Positions 3,805 to 55,600 of a stretch of 64,000 bases of DNA are shown here, piece by piece. Source of the stretch: Gibbula magus (Eukaryota; Mollusca; Gastropoda; Trochida; Trochidae); NCBI GenBank assembly GCA_936450465.1, contig OW388296.1:42822448-42886447 (forward strand), given 5' to 3'. Made by a program: the position numbers and the translations under genes. The notes beneath the pieces were generated by a model. That model searched no databases. It worked only from the letters and a program-made list of their open reading frames with translations, and was not told where the DNA came from. The stretch's first letter is position 1, and each line of letters begins with the position of its first letter.

Positions 3805-4230
3805 AGTAAAACTGCACGAGCTACACAAACTGCACGAGCTACACAAACTGCACGAGCTATACCAACTGCACGAGCGACACGAGCTGCATGAGGTACACAA
3901 ACTGCACGAGCTACACAAACTGCACGAGCTACACGAGCTGCATGAGGTACACAAACTGCACGAGCTACACAAACTGCACGAGCGGCACGAGCTGCATGAG
4001 GTACACAAACTGCAAGAGCGACACAAGCTGCACGAGTTACACAAACTGCACGAGCGACACGCGCGCGTACGAGCTGCACGAGCTACACACACTGCACGAG
4101 CGACACGAGCTGCATGAGCTACACAAACTGCACTAGCTATACAAACAGCGCGAGCTACACGAACTGCACGAGCTACACGAGCTACTCGAACTGCACGAGC
4201 TTATAAAGCTACACTAACTGCACGAGCTAC
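3805..4230. repeat. GCACGAGCTACAC minisatellite, block 1
   Basis: Tandem variants of a 6- to 18-base motif (ACTGCACGAGCTACACAA with ACGAGCGACACGAGCTGCAT variants). The period is a multiple of three, so several frames stay open and spell low-complexity Cys/Ser/Thr- or Ala/Arg/Val-rich peptides on both strands. Those are repeat artefacts, not genes. Related blocks lie at 4955-5385 and 19431-19585. Confidence 0.85.
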
Positions 4231-4239
4231 TCAAGCTGA

Positions 4240-4950: not shown

Positions 4951-4954
4951 ATAT

Positions 4955-5385
4955 GCACGAACTGCACGAGCTATACACGAACTGCAAGTGCTGCACGAGC
5001 TGCACGAGCCACACGAGCCACACGAGCCACACAAACTGCACGAGCTATACACGAACTGCAAGTGCTGCAAGAGCCGCAAGAGCTACAAGAATTGCACGAG
5101 CTGCACGAGCTACATGAACTGCACGAACTGCACGAACTGCACGAGCTACACGAATTGCACGAGCTGCACGAACTGCACGAGCTGCACGAGCTGCACGAGC
5201 CACACGAATTGCACGAGCTGCACGAACTGCACGAGCTGCACGAGCTACATGAAGTGAACGAGCTGCACGAATTCCCAAGAGCTGCACGAGCCACACGAGG
5301 TGCGAGAACCGCGCGAGCTGCACGAACTACACATACTGCGCGAGCTGCACGAACTACACATACTGCGCGAGCTATACACCAGCAC
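4955..5385. repeat. GCACGAGCTGCACGAACT minisatellite, block 2
   Basis: Dense tandem array of GCACGA/GCACGAACT/GCACGAGCTACA words. In one plus frame it reads a run of Leu-His-Glu triplets; on the minus strand it reads Cys-Ser-Ser. Its right edge joins a LINE fragment directly (5395 onward), so the array has replaced or invaded the 3' end of that LINE. Confidence 0.85.
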
Positions 5386-7342: not shown

Positions 7343-28928
<21,586 letters not shown>

Positions 28929-33695: not shown

Positions 33696-33909
33696 TTAAG
33701 GGGTCCTCGGTTTGAAGATGATTTTATACTGTGGTGCAGTCAGCAGTCCGCTGACGTCGAATGTTCTGGGGTCAGTATCTGGCAGTGGTTGAGAGGGGTC
33801 AGGAACCAGGTCAAAGTTCTGTAGAATGGCAGCACAGGCCAAAAATATTCTGAGTCGAGCTAATACTTCTCCAAGACACATCCGTTTACCAACTCCAAAT
33901 GCAATCATT
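33696..33909 (-). CDS. P450 exon 6 (haem-binding loop, C-terminus)
   Basis: Acceptor CAG ending at 33910 on the minus strand, phase 2. It encodes MIAFGVGKRMCLGEVLARLR with the haem cysteine, and ends …FKPRTP then TAA. The TAA is part of the TTAA that flanks the MITE. Confidence 0.94.
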
Positions 33910-36900
33910 CTGAAAACACATATTTAAGAACGAAGTTGAACTATATGACACATAAACAACATCTTAGAAATTTGTTTTTTCTCATAATAATCGAAAATAA
34001 TTTTGAAGAAACATATCTTGCATTAGGGATAAAGGAAGGATCGTGTTAAAAATACAATATTCCAACCTTTAAATTTTAGGATGTCCTCTTTTATAGTCTC
34101 TGCATATTTTTCTTGATAACTTCTGAATTCTTTATGAACGACGTACATGTAGGAACTTTTATCCCTCTTTCATAACCTCGTACTTCAAAACTGTAGCTGT
34201 TGTGAAACGTGTTTCTGAACTTCAAACACAGTACATTCTTCTTGCGTATGACATATGACTATCAACACATTTATTTAACGTAATATTGCAAAATGAAATA
34301 CTACATGAATGCTGACCATGTAAGTCACACTTCCAAAACAAATAACATATCAATATTACTTTGAAACGTCGTCTTACCTTTGACGGCGTCCATCTTCAGG
34401 TGGTATGAGTTCACCTGTGTTGTCAAGGAAACGAGATGGTTTGAATTCCCAAGGAGACTCCCAGAAGTTTTCGTCATGGAGAACACCCCAGATGTTGTAA
34501 AATATCTACAATTAAATATGAGTCGTCAAATGATTGATAGAAACTTTTCAATTATATCATTAATACATATACATGTAGATGAACTGGCGTAAATAACATG
34601 ATATACACAGGCAAACGTTAAATATTCAAGCTTTCACTCATCGAATTTGTATTATTTAGTATATGTTAAGTTAAACTAACACATTAAATAATATAAGGCA
34701 TAATCAAGTGGTATTTATTACAGGTGACAGTCATCAAACTAACACTTCACAATCCACATTGATAAGGCATATAATCACAAAATCTAGTTATTCTAGACAT
34801 TTGGTTGAAACATGGATTTTAAAGGGGCAGTAGCACGTTTTTTTGAAATTTTATTTTTTGAAATTTCCCATTTATAATGATAGTTTATGTCATTAATGTT
34901 TACTTTAGAGGATAAAACATCATATTACACAACCCAATTATCTGTAGTGGTAATAACGGTGTTGCTTATGAAGCATTGCATGGCGGCCATTTTATTGTGA
35001 ACACATTTTATTATATTGAATGACAAACATTATTTCCATTTCTTTACGGAAACATGTACACTCATTTTTTAACTTGATTTTCCGAAGAGAGAAGGGTGTT
35101 TTTACTATTGGTGACATTATTTTTCAAATAAATTTCATGGACCGAAAAAACGTGCTACTGCCCCTTTAAGGGTTTGGTCTCTATAGGTCAGACCATGCCA
35201 CAAACCTATCTGACATAATATGTGTGTTGAGCAAGGAAATATCTTTAAAAGTCCAAAGTGAAAGTGGCAAATATTAAACTGGCTTTAACCAAACACAATG
35301 AATTAGAACTGCATTTAATGTGTCCTTGTTCGCGGTAAGATGAATATAGAAACACTGTATTTACTATTTCCCTTTAATACATTTGGAAGTAAATTGGTTA
35401 TTACCTGATACAGCAAAACATGAAATAATCTGTTTCAAAGTGTAGTAGTAATATAATGTCTAACTAGAGAACAGAACGATTTTCCTTTCTTGCCTTTCTT
35501 ACAATCAACTTAGGCATGACGTTAATATCCAAATGACGAATTCAGTTACTATGTTTTTATATATTAAAAATCATTATCATTACACACAGCGCAATATGTA
35601 CAGGTATAACTCAATTCACATATGATAATATCCTATGGTAAGATATAACTTCTAACAGTTACTTGTTAAGTAATATCAACAGGGATAATGTCATGCACAT
35701 ACCATACTATCCTTGGATAATAAGTAACCTCTAAAAGTTAAATCCTGAGCAATATCTAATTGGGGTATCATTCACATACCATTCTATCCTTGGTGAAGAG
35801 TAACCTCTTAAAGTTAAATCCTGAGCAATATCTACTGGGGGTATCGTTCACATACCATTCTATCCTTGGTGAAGAGTAACCTCTAAAAGTTAAAGCCTGA
35901 GCAATATCTACTGGGGGTTTCATTCACATACCATTCTATCCTTGGTGAAGTGTAACCTCTTAAAGTTAAATCCTGAGCAATATCTAATGGGGGTATCATT
36001 CACATACCATTCTATCATTGGTGAAGAGTAACCTATCAAAGTTAAATCCTGAGCAATATCTACTGGGGGGTTCATTCACATACCATTCTATCCTTGGTGA
36101 AGAGTAACCTCTAAAAGTTAAATCCTGAGCAATATCTACTGGGGGTTTCATTCACATACCATTCTATCCTTGGTGAAGAGTAACCTTTAAAAGTTAAATC
36201 CTGAGCAATATCTACTGGGGGTTTCATTCACATACCATTCTATCCTTGGTGAAGAGTAACCTCTAAAAGTTAAATCATGAGCAATATCTACTGGGGGTTT
36301 CATTCACATACCATTCTATCTTTGGTGAAGAGTAACCTCTAAAAGTTAAATCCTTAACAATAGCTACTGGGGGTTTCATTCACATACCATTCTATCCTTG
36401 GTGAAGAGTAACCTCTAAAAGTGAAATCCTGAGCAATATCTACTGGGGGTTTCATTCACATACCATTCTATCCTTGGTGAAGAGTAACCTCTAAAAGTTA
36501 AATCCTGAGCAATATCTACTGGGGGTATCATTCACATACCATTCTATCCTTGGTGAAGAGTAACCTCTAAAAGTGAAATCCTGAGCAATATCTACTGGGG
36601 GTTTCATTCACATACCATTCTATCCTTGGTGAAGAGTAACCTCTAAAAGTTAAATCCTGAGCAATATCTACTGGGGGTATCATTCACATACCATTCTATC
36701 CTTGGTGAAGAGTAACCTCTTAAAGTTAAATCCTGAGCAATATCTACTGGGGGAATCATTCACATACCATTCTATCCTTGGTGAAGAGTAACCTCTAAAA
36801 GTTAAATCCTGAGCAATATCTACTGGGGGTATCATTCACATACCATTCTATCTTTGGTGAAGAGTAACCTCTAAAAGTTAAATCCTTAACAATAGCTACT

Positions 36901-39900
36901 GGGGGTTTCATTCACATACCATTCTATCCTTGGTGAAGAGTAACCTCTAAAAGTTAAATCATGAGCAATATCTACTGGGGGTATCATTCACATACCATTC
37001 TATCCTTTTGATGAAGAGTAACCTCTAAAAGTTAAATCCTGAGCTATATCTACTGGGGGTTTCATTCACATACCATTCTATCCTTGGTGAAGAGTAACCT
37101 CTAAAAGTTAAATCCTGAGCAATATCTACTGGGGGTATCATTCACATACCATTCTATCCTTGGTGGAGAGTAACCTCTTAAAGTTAAATCCTGAGCAATA
37201 TCTACTGGGGGTATCATTCACATACCATTCTATCCTTGGTGAAGAGTAACCTCTAAAAGTTAAATCCTGAGCAATATCTACTGGGGGTTTCATTCACATA
37301 CCATTCTATCCTTTGTGAAGAAGTACCTTTAAAAGTTAAATCCTGAGAAATATCCACTGGGGGTATCATTCACATACCATTCTATCCTTGGTGAAGAGTA
37401 ACCTCTAAAAGTTAAATCCTGAGCAATATCTACTGGGGGTATCATTCACATATCATTATATCCTTGGTGAAGAGTAACCTCTAAAACTTAAATCCTGAGC
37501 AATATCTACTGGGGGTTTCATTCACATACCATTCTATCCTTGGTGAAGAGTAACCTCTAAAAGTGAAATCCTGAGCAATATCTACTGGGGGTTTCATTCA
37601 CATACCATTCTATCCTTGGTGAAGAGTAACCTCTTAAAGTTAAATCCTGAGCAATATCTACTGGGGGTATCATTCACATACCATTCTATCCTTGGTGAAG
37701 AGTAACCTCTAAAAGTTAAATCCTGAGCAATATCTACTGGGGGTTTCATTCACATACCATTCTATCCTTGGTGAAGAGTAACCTCTAAAAGTGAAATCCT
37801 GAGCAATATCTACTGGGGGTTTCATTCACATACCATTCTATCCTTGGTGAAGAGTAACCTCTTAAAGTTAAATCCTGAGCAATATCTACTGGGGGTATCA
37901 TTCACATACCATTCTATCCTTGGCGAAGAGTAACCTCTAAAAGTTAAATCCTGAGCAATATCTACTGGGGGTTTCATTCACATACCATTCTATCCTTGGT
38001 GAAGAGTAACCTCTAAAAGTGAAATCCTGAGCAATATCTACTGGGGGTTTCATTCACATACCATTATATCCTTGGTGAAGAGTAACCTCTTAAAGTTAAA
38101 TCCTGAGCAATATCTACTGGGGGTTTCATTCACATACCATTCTATCCTTGGTGAAGAGTAACCTCTTAAAGTTAAATCCTGAGCAATATCTACTGGGGGT
38201 ATCATTCACATACCATTCTATCCTTGGTGAAGAGTAACCTCTAAAAGTTAAATCCTGAGCAATATCTACTGGGGGTATCATTCACATACCATTCTATCCT
38301 GGGTGAAGAGTAACCTCTAAAAGTTAAATCCTGAGCAATATCTACTGGGGGTTTCATTCACATACCATTCTATCCTTGGTGAAGAGTAACCTCTAAAAGT
38401 GAAATCCTGAGCAATATCTACTGGGGGTTTCATTCACATACCATTCTATCCTTGGTGAAGAGTAACCTCTTAAAGTTAAATCCTGAGCAATATCTACTGG
38501 GGGTATCATTCACATACCATTCTATCCTTGGTGAAGAGTAACCTCTAAAAGTTAAATCCTGAGCAATATCTACTGGGGGTTTCATTCACATACCATTCTA
38601 TCCTTGGTGAAGAGTAACCTCTAAAAGTGAAATCCTGAGCAATATCTACTGGGGGTTTCATTCACATACCATTCTATCCTTGGTGAAGAGTAACCTCTTA
38701 AAGTTAAATCCTGAGCAATATCTACTGGGGGTATCATTCACATACCATTCTATCCTTGGTGAAGAGTAACCTCTAAAAGTTAAATCCTGAGCAATATCTA
38801 CTGGGGGTTTCATTCACATACCATTCTATCCTTGGTGAAGAGTAACCTCTAAAAGTGAAATCCTGAGCAATATCTACTGGGGGTTTCATTCACATACCAT
38901 TATATCCTTGGTGAAGAGTAACCTCTTAAAGTTAAATCCTGAGCAATATCTACTGGGGGTTTCATTCACATACCATTCTATCCTTGGTGAAGAGTAACCT
39001 CTTAAAGTTAAATCCTGAGCAATATCTACTGGGGGTATCATTCACATACCATTCTATCCTTGGTGAAGAGTAACCTCTAAAAGTTAAATCCTGAGCAATA
39101 TCTACTGGGGGTATCATTCACATACCATTCTATCCTTGGTGAAGAGTAACCTCTAAAAGTTAAATCCTGAGCAATATCTACTGGGGGTTTCATTCACATA
39201 CCATTCTATCCTTGGTGAAGAGTAACCTCTAAAAGTTAAATCCTGAGCAATATCTACTGGGGGTTTCATTCACATACCATTCTATCCTTGGTGAAGAGTA
39301 ACCTCTTAAAGTTTAATCCTGAACAATATTTACAGGGATAGTACATTTGTATTCACATATCATAGTATCCATGGGTAGGATATACGTCTTAAAGTTAACT
39401 CCTAAACAATATATACATGGTATATCTTCATTCACACACCATACATGTAGATCCTTGGTGAGGAGTAACCTCTACAAATTGAATCCTGAACAATATTTAC
39501 AGGGATAATATTTGCATTCACATACCACGCTATCCTTGGGCATGCAGTAACCATCAAACGTTAAATACTGAACATTATTTACAGGGATAATTTCATTAAC
39601 ATACCATAGTAACCTTTGGTAGGAAGTAACCTTTAAAAGTTACATTCTGGGCATATTCTACAGGGATAATTTCATTGCCATACCATAGAATATTTGGATA
39701 AACAGTAACCTAAACGTTAAATCCTGAGCAGTATCTGCAGGGATTATTTCATTAACATTTAAAAACATACCATGGTATCCTTGGGTAAACAATACCCTCT
39801 GAAAGAAACATCCGCCATGGTGCAGCGTGGTGTGGTGATTGGTATGGACGGGTACAGACGGAATGTCTCCCACATGACAGCCTGGGTATAGGGCATGGAG

Positions 39901-42757
39901 TTCTTGTCATTGGAGCAAGGGAGACGACTCTTGCCAACAACCTTGTCAACTTCCTGTTGTATTTGCCGCTGTACTTCCGGTTTGGCTGTCAGGATCAGGA
40001 ACATCGAATAGAGAGCTGTACGAGAGGTACCAGTGCCTGGTAGGAAAGTGGAAGACCGTTTTATGCAGTGGAATTTTATATTTAAACAACAAGTTGACTT
40101 CTTACATGGGTACCTGCGTGAGAGTACTAGGTCTACACAGTGGCACAGGAAATATTTTGTTCTGACCCTGCTTAAAACACCTCCACAAAATGAATGATCA
40201 ATTTAGGCACCATTTCGGTTGAGACATCTATGATTTACAGAAATAAGGATTTACAAAAATGCTAAGACATTTTAAAATCTAGTTATGTATACATGAAGAA
40301 ATAATCTTAAACGGAACCATGGGGTCAAAGACAGGAGGGATGAAATATAAATTGCGATTGAAACCCGAAATATAAAAATCACAACAAAAATAATAATAAT
40401 ACAAATCATCATTCTCTTATTGCGATGTTATACTGTGTTTTCAGTGCCGTCTACAGCTGCCTTGATGATTAAATCAATGGCAAAATAACACAACATGTAC
40501 CTGCCATCAATAAGTTCATCATAACACCAGACACAGTATCCTCAGAGATGTTTCCTCGATCCTTTTCCTCCAGTAGGTAATCCAAGAAACAACGTTTCCT
40601 CTCCAAGTCGTCAGTTCTCTGCGTTTTCAAGAATTGTGGTAAATGCGAATATAGAAATAGGAAACAAGAAATAGTTTCTATATTATCCTATTATCAAACT
40701 ACAACTAATCGAGAATTCTCTATTCATGCGATTTCAAACATGGGCATAACCATAGCCTTATGAATTAAACTAGTGTCTCAGTTCATTCAAAACGATGCAC
40801 ACGAATATTGCCTTGGCAGCACTTTTTGTCTAAATTACATAGGATATATCTGTCTTTTCTTGACTAATACAATGTTTATCTCATCGAGTGAGGTAGAAAG
40901 TTTATACTTTTCTACCTCACGAGATGAGATAAACCTGGTATTTGTCAAGAATTGACGGATATTCTATGTATTATATGATGTTATCCTTGTAATACGTGAC
41001 GTCATAAGCGAATTCGCTACGTCAGACCGTTTTTTGACGTCAAATGATATCACTGATCGCCGTGAAAATATAAGTTATTTTCACTGTAGTTTGATAATCA
41101 GTTTATTTCACTGATAAATCCAGTATTTCATTGTTCGTCATATAATAAAAAATCTTTATGTTTCAGTTTCATCTCATATTATTTTTTATTTGAATTTTTG
41201 TTATCTTCCCCTTTGAAGAAATGACGAAGAGCATATGAAATACCATGAATTTATCACTTTAGTATAGCAGTAAGTAAACATACCTTTGGGATGTTACTGT
41301 ATTTCCATTGCCAACTTTATAAACCTGATATACACAGTACACTTTACTGAGTTTATATGTTATACAAGTATATATATTCGATTGAAAATTTTAAACATTA
41401 TCAAGAGGCAGATACATGCCACTGTGACTAACATAGCACCCCCTATTTATGTGTCTAAAAGGCATTGACCAGCCTAAAAATATCATTCAAAATAAAATAA
41501 AAAGTAAAATAAAATAAGAGAAAATAAAGAATTGAACAATTAAGAACAATATTGAAATATATAATGAAAGTACCTTTTCTTTTTCGTTGTTGAATTTCAG
41601 ATGTGACATATATTTCTGTAACCGTTGATAAACCTTTCCACACCCCAGTGGGATATGACGTAGGAATGGCAATGACGTCATCAACTGTGATGTTTGTGGA
41701 CTCAGCAGGTAGTTCAGCGAGTCCGTTATATCAGCATATAACTTCAGTTCTTCGTCTTCTTGCTTCAGATGTTTACCGGTCAGCTTGAAATATAATTATG
41801 CATATCAAAGTTTTATTAGCAGGAACCTACTTGTAGCTACTGTAACTCATCAAAGACAAAGATACTTAATTATTGGAATCTTGATCATGTTCACCACATT
41901 GAAGAGTTTATTGCTGCAGTGACCACTTGCTGAATCTTGACATGAAATCCTGTACTAAAATAGTCTGTATAGGTTAAATGGTAGGTTAAATGGTAGGTTT
42001 ATCAATGATTCGAGTGCATGTTTTGGCACATCCTTATTTTAAAAGTTTATGAATATTTATAAAGACAATGACTTTCCTGGAGATAAACAAAATGAATAAA
42101 ATCACACTTCATATCTGTTATGGTATATAGTAGTTAAATACCAGGTACTGGACTCGTGCGATCACTACCATCAGTCAATGCACTTGAAAGTAAATTCATA
42201 ATTACCAGCATTGAGACGATGCTTGTGATGTATCCACTTATGAAATCGAAGGGATCCACCGGCTTCCCAATTTCTCCTTTAATCCTTGTTACAAGATATT
42301 CAAGCTCGGTCTGAACAAGGTCCTCCACGTCCTTCAGGTGAGTTCCATAAGTCTTCAGCCCTCGCATCACAAGTTTCCTCAATGCCACCCATTCTTCGGA
42401 GTAGGTCGAGAACACCTCGTCACCCCTCATGACGTAACTCCCAACAAACGTTGGTGGTCTGCCGCTCATCAGATCAGCATAGTGAGGGGAACTCAGCGCT
42501 TCCTTTATAACGTCGAACGAGTTGAGCACAACGTAGTCTTCTTGGAAGATTTTGATTGTATAAGCATCTCCATACTGTTTTCCTACGTCCGTCATGTTGA
42601 ACATGAATTTGTCTTTTCCAAACTGAAGAGCATTGCCGAATATAGGAACGCCTCTTGGTCCAGGAGGAAGTTTCTTGTTTCTTCCTGGTTTTAGATGTTT
42701 GTACAGGACATATAGGAATACAGCGAGACACGCTATGCTTGGTATTGTGACCTCCAT
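33696..42757 (-). CDS. Cytochrome P450, CYP2-clan type, complete six-exon gene
   Basis: Six exons: 42757-42206, 41783-41574, 40618-40501, 40036-39771, 34505-34378, 33909-33696. They sum to 1488 bases, 495 residues, the normal length of a microsomal P450, and all phases match. N-terminal signal anchor (IACLAVFLYVLY) and proline hinge LPPGPRGVPIFGN place it on the ER membrane, where it would oxidise small molecules with electrons from P450 reductase. Landmarks: C-helix WVALR (W123, R127); I-helix AGTGTS (293-298); ExxR as ETFR (350-353); FKPSRF; haem loop FGVGKRMCLGE with Cys436. The I-helix lacks the usual acidic residue (AGx[D/E]T), which is unusual. Intron 4 (34506-39770) contains a 76-bp tandem array and a MITE, and the stop codon overlaps a MITE target site. 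It converges tail-to-tail with SLC17. The substrate is unknown; I cannot name the CYP subfamily. Confidence 0.93.
34378..34505 (-). CDS. P450 exon 5
   Basis: Phase 0 to 2, acceptor TTGTAG, donor GTAAGA. It encodes IFYNIWGVLHDENFWESPWE FKPSRFLDN…, the PERF-region of P450s. Confidence 0.93.
34823..35165. mobile_element. TTAA-flanked MITE, reference copy (343 bp)
   Basis: AGGGGCAGTAGCACGTTTTT … AAAAAACGTGCTACTGCCCCT between TTAA (34819-34822) and TTAA (35166-35169). The long terminal inverted repeats and TTAA sites are piggyBac-like; no coding sequence. It lies in P450 intron 4. Confidence 0.88.
35620..39770 (-). repeat. 76-bp tandem array in P450 intron 4, derived from exon 4 end plus splice donor
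   Basis: About 47 well-kept units of 76 bp lie between roughly 35770 and 39340, with several diverged units on both sides. On the plus strand each unit reads CATACCATTCTATCCTTGGT … AGTAACCTCTAAAAG … TCCTGAGCAATATCTACTGG. The authentic end of exon 4 with its donor (39766-39805) reads CATACCATGGTATCCTTGGG … AATACCCTCTGAAAG, and the intron just beyond it carries TTAAATCCTGAGCAGTATCT. So each unit copies about 33 bases of exon end, the GTATGT donor and about 36 bases of intron. The most exon-like units are the diverged ones next to exon 4, which suggests outward growth from the exon. Rare shared variants recur at 532 and 836 bases (7 and 11 units), showing higher-order duplication. Confidence 0.92.
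39771..40036 (-). CDS. P450 exon 4 (I-helix end to K-helix)
   Basis: Phase 1 to 0, acceptor TACCAG, donor GTATGT. It encodes TGTSRTALYSMFLILTAKPE, the ExxR segment VMWETFRLYPSIPI and RGYCLPKDTM at its end. Its last ~33 bases are the apparent source of the intronic array. Confidence 0.94.
40501..40618 (-). CDS. P450 exon 3
   Basis: Phase 0 to 1, acceptor ACGCAG, donor GTACAT. It encodes RTDDLERKRCFLDYLLEEKD and GVMMNLLMAG, the start of the I-helix. Confidence 0.92.
40853..41155. repeat. Foldback repeat family, copy B
   Basis: Hairpin TCTTTTCTTGACTAATACAA … CTGGTATTTGTCAAGAA (to about 40950), then TGACGTCA palindromes and the TATTATATGA / TCATATAATA pair, as in 31127-31505. It lies in P450 intron 2. 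Confidence 0.7.
41574..41783 (-). CDS. P450 exon 2
   Basis: Phase 0 to 0, 70 codons, acceptor TTCAAG, donor GTACTT. It encodes LTGKHLKQEDEELKLYADIT and SLPFLRHIPLGCGKVYQRL, matching the F-G region of CYP2-type P450s. Confidence 0.88.
42206..42757 (-). CDS. P450 exon 1 (membrane anchor to E-helix)
   Basis: Starts at ATG 42757 and ends at donor GTAATT (42205), 184 codons, phase 0. It encodes the signal anchor, proline hinge and the WxxxR C-helix motif. The frame stays open past the donor, but only this donor gives a family-like join to exon 2. Confidence 0.92.
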
Positions 42758-43525: not shown

Positions 43526-43733
43526 AACTTTAGAATTGGTTCGCCACCTTGAATACATTCTAAAGATTAACCCTAACCCTAAACCTAACACTACCCCTAA
43601 CCCTAATACTAACCCTAAACCCTAATAGTATAATACTAACACTAACACTAAACCCTAATACTAACCCTAACCCTAAACCCTAATACTTACCCTAAACCTA
43701 AACCGTAATAGGTGGCGAACCAATTCTAAAGTT
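43526..43733. mobile_element. Telomere-like repeats inside terminal inverted repeats
   Basis: AACTTTAGAATTGGTTCGCC opens the element and GGCGAACCAATTCTAAAGTT closes it, about 24 bp of near-perfect inverted repeat (AACTTTAGAATTGGTTCGCC then ACCT). The interior, 43567-43707, is variants of CCCTAA (CCCTAACCCTAAACC, CCCTAATACTAA). It is about 208 bp, non-coding, MITE-like; no convincing target duplication. Confidence 0.75.
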
Positions 43734-48057: not shown

Positions 48058-49800
48058 AGAAGAAGAAGAAGAAGAAGATTATTTTATTAAAGTGTCACAC
48101 ACATTAAAAGTGTCCGGCCAATATGGCCTATGAGACACTAAAATCTTCATGGTGCATATATAAAATATATTATAAACAGATATATCATAAAATACAAGTC
48201 ATACCACACAGTCAAATAATACATATGTATAATGGTAAAATACTACATTACTGGCTCATATTCCTTAAAGTAAACATATTGTAAACCATTGCGGCGATGG
48301 ATTTGATATGAATCCTGTCAGAAAATAAATATATTGCCTTACTGATTGGCGACAAAGTGCTGAAAGACCTATCATAAATACTTAATTTATCAAAAAGCTC
48401 CGTTCTGATGACCTTATAAAAACTACATTCAACAAGGAAATGAACCTCGTCTTCGATGGAGTTACTGTTGCAGAATTTGCATATACGATTATCTAATGGG
48501 GTTACAGGCCGAGTGAAACGTCCAACTTCTACTTCAAGTGGTAATGATCCGCATCGCAGCTTGCTGAAGACACTACGGTGTGAACGGTTAAGAATAGCTT
48601 GAACATAATACTCTACAGACAGAGTGTGCTTGAAAAGACGATATGTGCGTAGTTTGTTGCCATTCGGGAGGTTGTGGTCATTCCACAGTCCAGCAAGCCA
48701 GTCATTGTGATCCTTCAAAATAAGCCAGTCTTTAACATATAAGTATTCATTATCAGTAATTGCATATATATCATTAAATGTAAATTGCGAACTCAAAAAG
48801 TCTTTGATTCTGTTATGCCACGATTTGCGATACCTGGTTGACCACTGGTTTATTCTACAAGCGATTCTGTCAGAGTCCATACTGCATAGCTTACGCCAAA
48901 GTTTGATAGATTCGATCTTGTTACTCGTGGAGGGCGCCGTCCAACCCAGTTCACCTCGTACAGACAGATTTGGGGTTTTTCGTCCAACAGCAAGGAAGAA
49001 ACGGCAGGATTTGTTCTGTATAGAGTTGATGGATGAATATTCTCTTGTTCCCCATATAGCGGACCCATAAGAAAGAATTGGTTGAACCAAGTTATTATAT
49101 AATTGAGTAAAAACATCGTAAGCCATTCCACCAGCAGATTTAAATTTACATATTATTACGCCAAGGGCTCATTTGCTGACTTAGCGATTTCTTTAGTTGT
49201 AAAGTTGAGGTCAAGGTGCTCTTCTAACCAAATGCCGAGGTACTTGTAGGCGTGGCTAACTTCAATATCATCTGTTCCTATTTTATATGGATACGACGAC
49301 CGGGGCACAGATGGGGTACGATAGTGAACAACTTTCTTTGTAATCGCCACCTGGAGCACCAGCTCGCTATACAGTCCAGCATACGTTGGAGAGATTTTTC
49401 ATTTGGAGCAATTACAGCGATGTCATCAGCATACAATAGAATACTCAGCATCTTATTGTCGATGTTAATACCACAGTCCAAGTTGTTGATTTCCGTAGCA
49501 AGGTCGTTAACGTATATAGAAAAGAGAGATGGAGATAAAACACAGCCCTGGCGAACTCCTGATAGCACTGGGAACGAGTCTGTTAAACAGTCATTCACAC
49601 GGACACTTGACCATGTGTCATCATACATTGCCTGAACTGCGTTCAGAAATTTACCGTGTATACCAAGTTGTTGAAGTTTATACCATAGGCATTGGCGATT
49701 AACACTGTCAAAAGCTTTCTTTGCATCGATAATATATCAGGCTTCGAGTGAAACAGACTTTGATAAGGTGATGTGGACATTTTTGTATAACTGAAATTTG
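48058..49800 (-). mobile_element. Decayed, 5'-truncated LINE
   Basis: The minus-strand 3' end is AATAAAATAATC followed by TTC repeats. Reading 5' to 3': KKAFDSVNRQCLW (about 49720) preceded by a stop, RT GVRQGCVLSPSLFSIYVNDL and LYADDIAV (49560-49420), a frameshift near 49340, YKYLGIWLEEHLDLN, then an open 292-codon stretch from 49126 to 48248 with QPILSYGSAIWG and a terminal Cys/His cluster (CKFCNSNSIEDEVHFLVEC). The architecture parallels the LINE at 9071-12006 but it is a different, older lineage. At least two frame breaks, endonuclease absent. Confidence 0.9.
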
Positions 49801-51507: not shown

Positions 51508-52634
51508 CTATTTGGTAACAACGCCACCGACAACACCAACAGCTTTGCCAACAATCCCCGGCAGAACTGCTGCAACAGCATGGAACAGAACTTTGAAGAG
51601 GAAGCCCATGACTTCAGAACTTTCCTTATTAACTTCATCCCTTGCCCTCTCCCTATCTTCCTCTCTCGCAATCTTCTCGACCTTTCTTTCCATTGTCAGC
51701 CTCTCAGCCTCGAGCTCCTTCTTCACCTTCTCATTCTCTTCTGCAAGCTGTTTGACAACGGACTTCAAGTTTGTTATCTCCTGTACAATAGAGTTGCTTG
51801 CTTTCTGTTTGGTTTCATCCTCCATCTGTTTGATTCTGTTTTGGAGTTGTGCTGCCTCAAGTTCATGCTTTCTATTTTCAGACCTCATTTTACTCTCGAA
51901 CTCTTTCCTAATTTGCTCTCGCTCTCCCTGCCGTTTTCGCTCGTTTTCCTTTCTCAGCTGTTCTTCCCGCTGTTGCATGTTCTTCTCCGCTTCTACGAAC
52001 ATATCACTGGTGTAACAGTTGCCCCCGTTTTGCATCAGAATGGTATCAATCAAGTCCATGAACTCACTGACTTCTTGATCGCGTTCAGATGTCGACCCTC
52101 TATTGTTGAAGGCTATGCATCGGTTGTTACAAGCCTGGAGAAGATCCTTAAGTTCCTTGGGAACATTTTGTACGTATTGAGAAAGGGTTGTGTTGTCATG
52201 GATGAGGTCATCTTTCCTCGTGAATAAAACCAGCAAATAATCTATCATCCCCTCGCCGAAAACTTGTATGAAGTGTTGAACTGTTTCCTGTTCCTCTTGT
52301 GTGAAGTGATCGATTCTGACCACCAGAACGAAGGCATGGGGACCGGGCGCCGTCATTCCAACACATTTGACAATCTCCCTTGTAATATCAGCATTGGTCA
52401 TGCCAGTGTCAAATAGACCAGGACTGTCAATTATGTGTATGTTGCGACCAAACCTAACGGCAGTTCCTCTTTGACATTTCTTAGTCACTGACGATCCACA
52501 TGCACTCGATTCAAATACTTTCTTGCCCAAAATGTTGTTTCCGGAAGCACTTTTGCCCGATCCTGTTCTTCCGAGGAATACAATTCTTCTTTGCTCTGCG
52601 GGACATACCTTTGAAGTCCATCCGATTTGTCCAG
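51508..52634 (-). CDS. GIMAP main exon (GTPase, coiled coil, C-terminal hydrophobic segment)
   Basis: Acceptor TTTTAG before 52634 (minus strand), phase 1; ends at a stop at 51508. The whole GTPase and tail are in one exon, as is common for GIMAP genes. Confidence 0.95.
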
Positions 52635-55600
52635 CTAAACATAAAAACACCACAGGTAAAATGGGATTAATATAAAATGATCGTGTATTCAATCTTTGCT
52701 AACCAATTCTCATAATTCTCATGATGCACATAAACCATATATTAAGGAATCCAAAGGAAACTTAAAATCACATAATCAAAACTTACTAATGCCAATCAGC
52801 GACGAAGCTAGGAGATACTCAGTTCGATTTGAAACGATACCAACTTTCAACAGATCTTATATGTATGTGATGAGGATATATAATTCGTGCAGATAAATAC
52901 ACATGGGGTGCTAAATTTGCTATTTCAAATGGGCTCAAACGGAAATAATGTTTTGTATTTAAGGTGGAAGTTTGTGAAATGGGGAAATTTTGTTAGTACA
53001 ATATGATGTAGTCATATCTTCTTGGATGACGCATCTTATCTGAAGGTCTCTCCTATCTCAACTGGTTAAGGATATTTCAAACGATGAATAATCAAAAGTC
53101 GTGTTTTCCAGAAACGTAAATATTTTAAAAATTAAAATTTAATTTAAGTTGGCTTTAAGAGACAGAGTACAACTATGTGTCAGTCGTAACTATATCTTAT
53201 GGATTAACATAGCAATCATCTTTGTTGGTATTGTTTGAATACGTTTAAAGTTTTTAGATTTTAAAGGCTTGCCATGCATTTTTTTAGGACGAATGGTCAG
53301 GGCCATATGTATAGCCTTGGTACCGCCAAACAAAATTTGAGATTTAGCGATGGAACAGTTCTGGTGGAGTCGAAAATGTGAAATGATGACGATGGATTGT
53401 TTGATAACATGTAATGTTGAAGTAGTTGGATAGAAGAAAACAATTTTGAATCAAGTACCACTGAGAGCTTTTTTCTTTATCTGTTTCACCATGTTACAGA
53501 TAAAACAATATGAATACATTTTGAATCTACGCAAAATATAACAAGATGTGATTGTTAAACTCTGATTCCCCGAGGATAAAACCATAGTATGGATGAAAAT
53601 ACCGATACAATTCCCTAAGGAGAACACTGTAGGGAGGCACCGCTGTATCTCATTATTTGTTTTATTAATAATTGACTCATAAATCAGTTTGTTGTAACAA
53701 GATCGTCAGTTTTATTGAACAAGCGACAGTTGTGACAAATTGAAAATGCAAGTAATATTATGGACTGCCAAATTCTAGATGGGTCGCCATGTTTTTTATG
53801 TTTTTTCATATACGATTGAACACTTTATTTCAAAGTTGGATTTTTCGAGTATAGCCATTGTGAAAAGTATTACAGGTCAAAGGGTCACTAACTTTACATC
53901 TATTAATACGCATTTGCCAGGTTTTTTGACATCACAAATGTAAACAATACTTTTGACTGCCACACTCCCAAAAAAGCCTCGATGTTGCATGCTCTTTGAC
54001 AGGTTATAAACAAAAGCGTGAACAATCATGATATATTACCCACCTGTCGTTGCTTGGTTACCAGATTGGATATCTGAGTGGAAACATTGAATGGGGCTTC
54101 CTGATGAGTAACTACTGCATGAACTCGACTCACTGTCCCAGGTATCTGAAACAAGGATTGTGTATGTGATGTAACGGTTTTCTTATCTCCACTAGCTGTG
54201 AGATGAGGCATTTTTAGTAGAACAGTACTTACTTAGAAATACTAAATACTTTAGATATGGCTAGTGGTCTGAGTGGTATGGTAACAGGGAAAGGTGTTTC
54301 CTGCTGAGTAACTACAACTGGACTCACTGTCACAGTTGACTGAAACACGAATTGTGTATGTGTTTTTTTTATCTCCTTTGGCTGTGAGATGAGGCATTGT
54401 CATATTTACAATATTATTTCAATCAAATAATGTGGCTGGTTTTATAGTTGTAGAAAGGCCATAACAATATACAATATGGTTGCCAAAAGCAAATGTAAAT
54501 GCAAAATGCAAATGGTTCGTTTTTACTCAATTCCATCTTCATATTGAAACCTATGAAGCTGGTTCAAAATGAAAAACTCAGTTACCTGCTGTTAGTTCAT
54601 CAATGTCAAACTGCTGACCACTGGGCGACGAATTCAGATATAACTTCTGCCATCTTGGCATTCCTTGGTCCGGACTCTCTTGGCCTGACCATGAACGATG
54701 TATATTTCAATCTTTAATAATGATTATCCTTCAAACTTTATTCAGAAAGTGAAAGACCATATAAACTGCTTTAATTCCTTGAAAAACTACTCTACAGCCA
54801 AATTGATTTTGATTTGAACCGATTGATTTCAACCAAATGGACATTCTCCCTTTTATTGACACAACCACCTGACACGGTCAAACTATATTTATCGAATGTT
54901 ATTTTTTTTTAAGGAGAGATGCTACCCAGAAACCGAACTCACGATTACATTTTGCAATAATACTTTATTGTTGTGAATAAACAGGAACATATATGCATTA
55001 CTTTCGTTGGAATATTGGCTTGTCTGTACACTAATGGAACTCCCTAAATTTCCTTAATGCCCTTTAATGGTTATTTTACGACATGCCGTATGGCGTCATC
55101 CTCACCTATATTCGCGGTAGATGATATTTTGTTTGTTATTCCAATTACATGCAAACCTCAGATTCATGATGAATTTAAGTTGCCTGATATAATCTACTAA
55201 AAGTTGTTATTTCACGATGTATTCTAAGACTGATGGTGTATTCAGAAATAAGTACACGATAATAAGTAACACTTGAATTGATCAAACCTCCTGTAACGTA
55301 GGGATTTTACAATTAAGTAGATAATTTAAATAATGGTGTTAAAGTGATGGAAAACATTCGGTGACCACGAGTTATTATTCTTGAATATATTATTTGCATT
55401 TAAAATGTATCACGAAATGGTTGTTGAATGAAACTGACAATCTTGTGTATAACTAATTGAGTGCATTTGAAGAGCTATTTGTCGATCCCATCAAAACACA
55501 TAAGCATAAATGTTGCATCATGTAATATGTAATCATCAAATGGACACATTGCCTGCCTGCAAATGAAACATGATTTGTAAATAGGTTTTATCAACAACCC

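Follow-up and report, generated by a model that had tools for sequence, protein, structure and literature searches.

The 64,000-nucleotide stretch of the Gibbula magus genome analyzed here (contig OW388296.1, positions 42,822,448 to 42,886,447, forward strand; referred to as the window) carries an intact cytochrome P450 gene on its minus strand, and the fourth intron of this gene contains a long tandem array whose units resemble the end of exon 4 together with its 5' splice site. In the gene model, six exons join into 495 codons plus a stop, with GT-AG boundaries at all five introns. The Pfam p450 domain covers residues 31-489 of the 495-codon product (E 4.6e-102), and the translation reads ETFR and FGVGKRMCLG, which we take to be the ExxR motif and the heme-cysteine motif, respectively. 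With the full domain and both motifs present, the host gene is a predicted cytochrome P450 of CYP2-like type. CYP2B proteins were the best PDB matches of the product. Among the matches listed in a protein search (120 of 170), the top three came from two gastropods and a chiton, with 30-31% identity, followed by birds with 32-33%; the highest identity among these best 120 of 170 matches was 33%, and there was no close annotated protein among them. Both the PDB and the protein searches were run with a 494-amino-acid query in which the exons were joined slightly wrongly. The P450 start codon is preceded, at a distance of ~0.8 kb, by a telomere-like tract of TAACCC/TAAACCC repeats (43568-43710). 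The gene and the array are composed as follows, in window positions:

42206..42757, minus strand: P450 exon 1 (gene model, joined frame; Pfam p450)
41574..41783, minus strand: P450 exon 2 (gene model)
40501..40618, minus strand: P450 exon 3 (gene model)
39771..40036, minus strand: P450 exon 4, 266 nt, with the terminus ...DVSFRGYCLPKDTM (gene model)
39771..39812, minus strand: final 42 nt of exon 4, exonic half of the proposed seed (alignments)
34506..39770, minus strand: intron 4, phase 0 (gene model)
39765..39770, minus strand: authentic intron 4 donor GTATGT (gene model)
35626..39770, minus strand: array of 54 exon-end/donor/intron units, 4.1 kb (Tandem Repeats Finder and splitting at the donor)
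39278..39770, minus strand: proximal units u1-u6, of which u1-u5 are strongly diverged
39605-39683, minus strand: unit u2, P450 frame kept (profile score)
39526-39604, minus strand: unit u3, P450 frame kept (profile score)
35780..39277, minus strand: homogenised core units u7-u52, 45 of the 46 being 76 nt long, mean identity 0.965
35703..35779, minus strand: distal unit u53, P450 frame intact, reading CAG, DLTFRGYLLSKDSM, GTATGT (profile score)
35626..35702, minus strand: distal decayed unit u54, without donor (splitting at the donor)
34378..34505, minus strand: P450 exon 5 (gene model)
33696..33909, minus strand: P450 exon 6, with the motif FGVGKRMCLG and the stop codon (gene model)

Exons 4 and 5 meet at LPKDTM/IFYN. 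In the alignment with CYP2B, this junction presumably lies 3' of the K-helix and before the PSRF motif, which we take to be the meander, and not at the K-helix/meander boundary, where a first-pass annotation of this DNA had placed it. Intron 4 sits past LPKDTM, whereas in vertebrate CYP2 genes the intron is, as we assume, found past PK, three codons earlier. Apart from the array, intron 4 holds an element of ~350 bp resembling a miniature inverted-repeat transposable element (34821-35167), with terminal inverted repeats AAAGGGGCAGTAGCACGTTTTTT, ~460 bp from the distal end of the array.

Tandem Repeats Finder reported the array at 35691-39736, with a period of 76, 52.9 copies and 92% matches, and splitting at the donor resolved 54 head-to-tail units of 76-87 nt between exon 4 and position 35626, the length of the array presupposing a correct assembly. 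With many head-to-tail copies, a homogenised interior and diverged ends, it is a tandem repeat of the minisatellite type. A unit descends, in this order, from the terminal 42 nt of exon 4 (GAT being the first codon), the donor and ~37 nt of intron; the intron copy adjoining exon 4 has 10 extra nt relative to the units. The first-pass annotation had located an array in a P450 intron at the correct coordinates, but its figures of ~47 units and ~33 exon bases per unit were too low. Compared to the exon, one base is missing from the exon-like part of the core unit, resulting in a frame that differs from that of the P450; because of this loss, the core encodes RLLFTKDRM instead of the P450 motif. 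Copies of the array elsewhere in the 64-kb window were not detected, with nothing beyond matches of 10-11 bases outside it. An exact 30-mer of the core unit was absent from viral contigs, Rfam gave no match at gathering score, and ARAGORN (bacterial settings) found no tRNA.

When the final 60 nt of exon 4, extended by GTATGT, were aligned to the core unit in doubled form, the score was 41. This score was reached by none of 2000 dinucleotide shuffles (maximum 26), in a comparison set as a test beforehand, and by none of 4762 window stretches (maximum 26), which were taken at 25-base intervals from both strands with the array region excluded. The exon 4 letters alone scored 29 against the core unit, with maxima of 27 among the shuffles and 26 among the window stretches (29 being reached in 0/2000 and 0/4762, respectively).

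The outer units were informative in another respect. A P450 profile of 14 columns, built from the 120 listed P450s (of 170 matches) with the host gene excluded, was applied to the 42 nt preceding each donor; 54 units were scored, 10 of them reported individually, and 109,516 42-mers from outside the gene provided the background. Unit u2 (NVTFKGYFLPKVTM) scored 20.1, and u53 (DLTFRGYLLSKDSM), 3.9 kb off at the opposite end of the array, scored 15.8, each with 0/109,516 background 42-mers as high. Lower scores were obtained for u3 (YLTFDGYCMPKDSV; 7.2, 1/109,516 as high), u5 (2.0, 18/109,516) and u1 (-5.5, 288/109,516). Although u2 and u53 are decayed outer units, their P450 frame is still readable, and outer units at both ends have F or L where exon 4 has C, yet fit the P450 family profile. 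In tblastn searches, the host P450 protein touched u2 and u3 (E 0.28 each) and three of eight other P450s touched u2 (E 0.29-0.65), all of these being weak matches. The pattern GY..LPKD..M followed by GTATGT, composed from exon 4 and the outer units themselves, occurred with at most two mismatches at five places in the window, namely exon 4 and four units, and in none of 100 shuffles.

That the exon letters alone surpass the best shuffle by just 29 to 27, and that the core units are off the P450 frame, would be in line with an unrelated satellite resembling the exon by chance, or with an exon that borrowed repeat sequence. This explanation is contradicted by the P450-like codons at both array ends, unlike the exon but fitting the family profile, and it is at odds with the lack of further copies in the window; we regard it as extremely unlikely. 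Since the outer units read in the P450 frame, the end of exon 4 can be identified as the seed of the repeat. The profile scores and the motif-donor pattern indicate that the repeat descends from a P450 exon end, and that units at both ends are older in state than the core. As judged from these comparisons, the array is the product of a duplication across the exon-intron boundary: exon end, donor and adjoining intron are homologous in order, and the frame is carried by u2, u53 and u3, not by the core. The alignments, the profile and the pattern strengthened what the first-pass annotation had claimed, namely that the units derive from the end of exon 4 and the donor there.

Edges and core of the array also differ in divergence. 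Mean mutual identity is 0.725 among the seven outer units (u1-u5, u53, and u54) and 0.965 among the 45 core units that are exactly 76 nt long. Identical units recurred at a lag of 11 in 9/35 cases, compared to 2.7 expected; this was attained in 3/5000 order shuffles, and in 109/5000 when the best of 19 lags was considered. A block duplication of 11 units within the array is supported more weakly than the difference between edges and core. At lag 3, 7/43 units were identical; this was matched in 179/5000 shuffles, compared to 3/5000 for lag 11, and a three-unit higher-order pattern was set aside. The overall pattern fits unequal exchange or block duplication combined with homogenisation in the middle, processes that may have operated here.

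We consider it highly probable that the array was seeded by the exon end and grew in an essentially neutral manner. In the course of events that we propose, a single tandem duplication of ~79 bp would have spanned the exon 4/intron 4 boundary, including 42 nt of exon, the donor and a total of ~37 nt of intron, with CAG joined to GAT. A duplication from an exon into the following intron would be safe because the upstream copy supplies the exon end and a working donor that still closes the exon, while later copies become intronic and are spliced away. Owing to this safety, it could easily be fixed and would be free to grow. The duplicate, released from selection, may then have expanded by unequal exchange or slippage into the 54-unit, 4.1-kb minisatellite. 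A variant lacking one base would have spread and homogenised the middle, whereas the older units would have remained at the two ends and decayed there. The unit donors and acceptor-like AGs would be inherited by-products, rarely used at most.

Several observations weigh against this scenario. On the P450 profile, units u4, u6, u7, u52, and u54 were unexceptional, each being matched by >4000 background 42-mers. Unit u53 has an identity of 0.88 to the core and the other six outer units 0.69-0.78, which indicates different ages for the two ends. In 48/54 units, the donor 9-mer ATGGTATGT is the same as that of the true donor, which could hint at constraint, and one of its nine columns varies across the 45 core units. 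In u2, u3 and u53, an AG and GTATGT enclose exactly 42 nt that are in the frame of the P450, as the splice sites of real cassette exons would. A further point is the weakness of the codon test, for which the six in-frame outer units were compared to a 10-codon consensus made by hand from those same units. Units u4 and u6, having lost the frame, were omitted; 9 codons of u1 and 8 of u5 entered the comparison, and for u54 its own, shifted reading frame was used. The outcome itself speaks for the scenario: changes fell on codon positions 1/2/3 in 14/9/11 cases, without clear bias, and altered the residue in 21 of the 29 changed codons, whereas exon 4 differed from the consensus in five codons, four of them synonymous (Fisher p 0.042). 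With its consensus drawn from the tested units, its partial reads and its omissions, this test is a weak one.

The repeated donors raise the possibility of a splicing regulator, in which the donor copies serve as binding sites for U1 or as competitors of the true donor, and thus tune intron 4 splicing or protect the intron from early polyadenylation. A GTATGT donor had been ascribed to every unit; a GT is present at the donor position in 51/54 units, most of them with the complete 9-mer of the true donor as stated above, and u54 lacks a donor. Computed U1 pairing amounted to -6.1 kcal/mol for the unit donor and -5.3 kcal/mol for the true donor, the other four donors of the gene ranging from -5.1 to -9.5 kcal/mol. 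GT sites whose U1 pairing equals or exceeds that of the true donor were found at 12.5 per kb in the array (52/232), compared to 2.7 per kb in the rest of the intron (3/73). On the transcript strand of intron 4, one of seven AATAAA/ATTAAA signals falls into the 4.1-kb array and six into the 1.1 kb beyond. These features speak for a regulator, but the whole minus strand including the array contains 371 such U1-pairing sites in 64 kb (5.8 per kb), making the array about twofold denser, and the scarcity of poly(A) signals probably follows from the letters of the unit. Moreover, conservation of the donor columns is unexceptional: 9/76 circular 9-column windows of the core are as invariant as the donor, and 8/73 windows of the seven outer units are as conserved. 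We therefore regard a regulator of this kind as improbable. A related idea appears quite improbable to us: the intron would act as a donor bank whose ~50 copies of the native 5' splice site either rival or assist the true donor, with copy number determining splicing efficiency or rare isoforms and being free to differ between individuals.

Alternatively, unit exons of 27 nt, or originally 42 nt, might sometimes be included in the transcript as variable microexons, adding residues at the KDTM/IFYN junction. A TTTTAG acceptor-like site 27 bases before the donor had been assigned to every unit. It is present in 30/54 units, with TTTAAG in 14 and any AG in 45. The segment from this AG over 27 nt to GT is stop-free in 43/54 units and encodes RLLFTKDRM in 37/54; apart from the last codons, it is off the P450 frame. 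The 42-nt arrangement in u2, u3 and u53 likewise speaks for inclusion. However, the core unit has three other AGs (CCCAG, GTAG, and CTCAG) 15-28 nt upstream of TTTTAG, which would be met first, and an intron between neighbouring units, from donor to TTTTAG, would measure 49 nt, less than usual animal introns. When four segments were compared across the 45 core units, the acceptor hexamer TTTTAG was the most variable (16/270 cells changed, 13 of these in one column) and the donor hexamer the quietest (1/270), with 31/1260 cells changed in the intron part and 42/1890 in the whole exon-like part. Inclusion would also be expected to add residues within a conserved part of the fold. Variable microexons are thus very unlikely in our view.

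In view of the variable acceptor, the unexceptional donor and the lack of a clear codon-position bias, the sequence does not support the earlier suggestion of decoys or microexons, in the sense of units that are kept up as such. A functional reading of the units appears weak, and the overall balance of the sequence evidence favours decay without selection.

Intronic minisatellites and satellites share with this array the head-to-tail units, a concerted core, signs of block duplication, and diverged ends. The array differs from them in that its seed is traceable to the end of a host exon and its donor, and in that some outer units are in coding frame. In the literature searched, at the level of titles and abstracts and mostly outside subscription journals, no description of an intronic array seeded by an exon boundary was found. 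Among the events found there, the closest is an intron gain in a potato RdRp gene, reported to have occurred by tandem duplication across an intron-exon boundary (PMC4974935). In both cases, a tandem duplication extends over an exon-intron boundary, and the parent boundary is the source of the splice signals. In potato, the duplicated segment spanned an intron's 3' end and gave rise to a new intron (PMC4974935), whereas here the 5' boundary was copied ~54 times within an existing intron.

Two other systems bear a more partial resemblance. The mutually exclusive or tandemly duplicated exons 4a/4b reported for OGDH (PMC7969005) similarly place alternative coding stretches and splice signals next to each other in one gene. 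In the P450 array, the 3' end of an exon alone was copied, and a unit could add to the exon end but not replace it. Mutually exclusive or duplicated cassette exons were ruled out for the P450 gene, since of the 266 nt of exon 4 the unit includes the final 42 alone. The U1-trapping pseudo-5' splice sites reported for HMGA1a and the estrogen receptor gene (PMC6002489) are comparable in that U1 could be held by additional donor-like sequences close to a genuine donor. The P450 intron differs from them in its dozens of identical copies.

Several further repeats and frames were found in the window. A Gypsy-type long terminal repeat (LTR) retrotransposon at 8520-18518 contains an uninterrupted frame of 1510 codons (12693-17225, minus strand) and a SCAN-like Pfam match. 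One of its LTRs is whole (~17370-18518), and the other is in two pieces (8520-9070 and 12007-12614) with 99.3-99.5% identity to the whole LTR, on which they overlap by ~10 bp, as a target-site repeat would. Between the two pieces lies a reverse-transcriptase element of ~2.9 kb resembling a long interspersed nuclear element. A retrotransposon of the window shares 71% identity with a Haliotis protein across residues 700-1500. Two arrays (3809-4238 and 4954-5373) are composed of 9-bp units, of which CTGCACGAG is an example, and the frames encoded by these repeats include ELHELHELH. The minus strand carries another piece of a reverse-transcriptase element at 49278-49736 (RVT_1, E 2e-23), and the frame beside it (48248-49168) matched no Pfam family. 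A frame for an AIG1/GIMAP-type GTPase extends over 51508-52698 (Pfam AIG1, E 1.3e-68).

If the proposed origin is correct, the P450 intron would preserve a clear record of the birth of a satellite from a gene's own splice boundary, tolerated since the first copy restores the exon. It would also represent a natural test of donor choice, in which a single intron has one true donor and, after it, 48 copies that match it in all 9 bases. Should splicing of this intron be faithful, the donor would be decided by position and exon context, and not by the donor letters.

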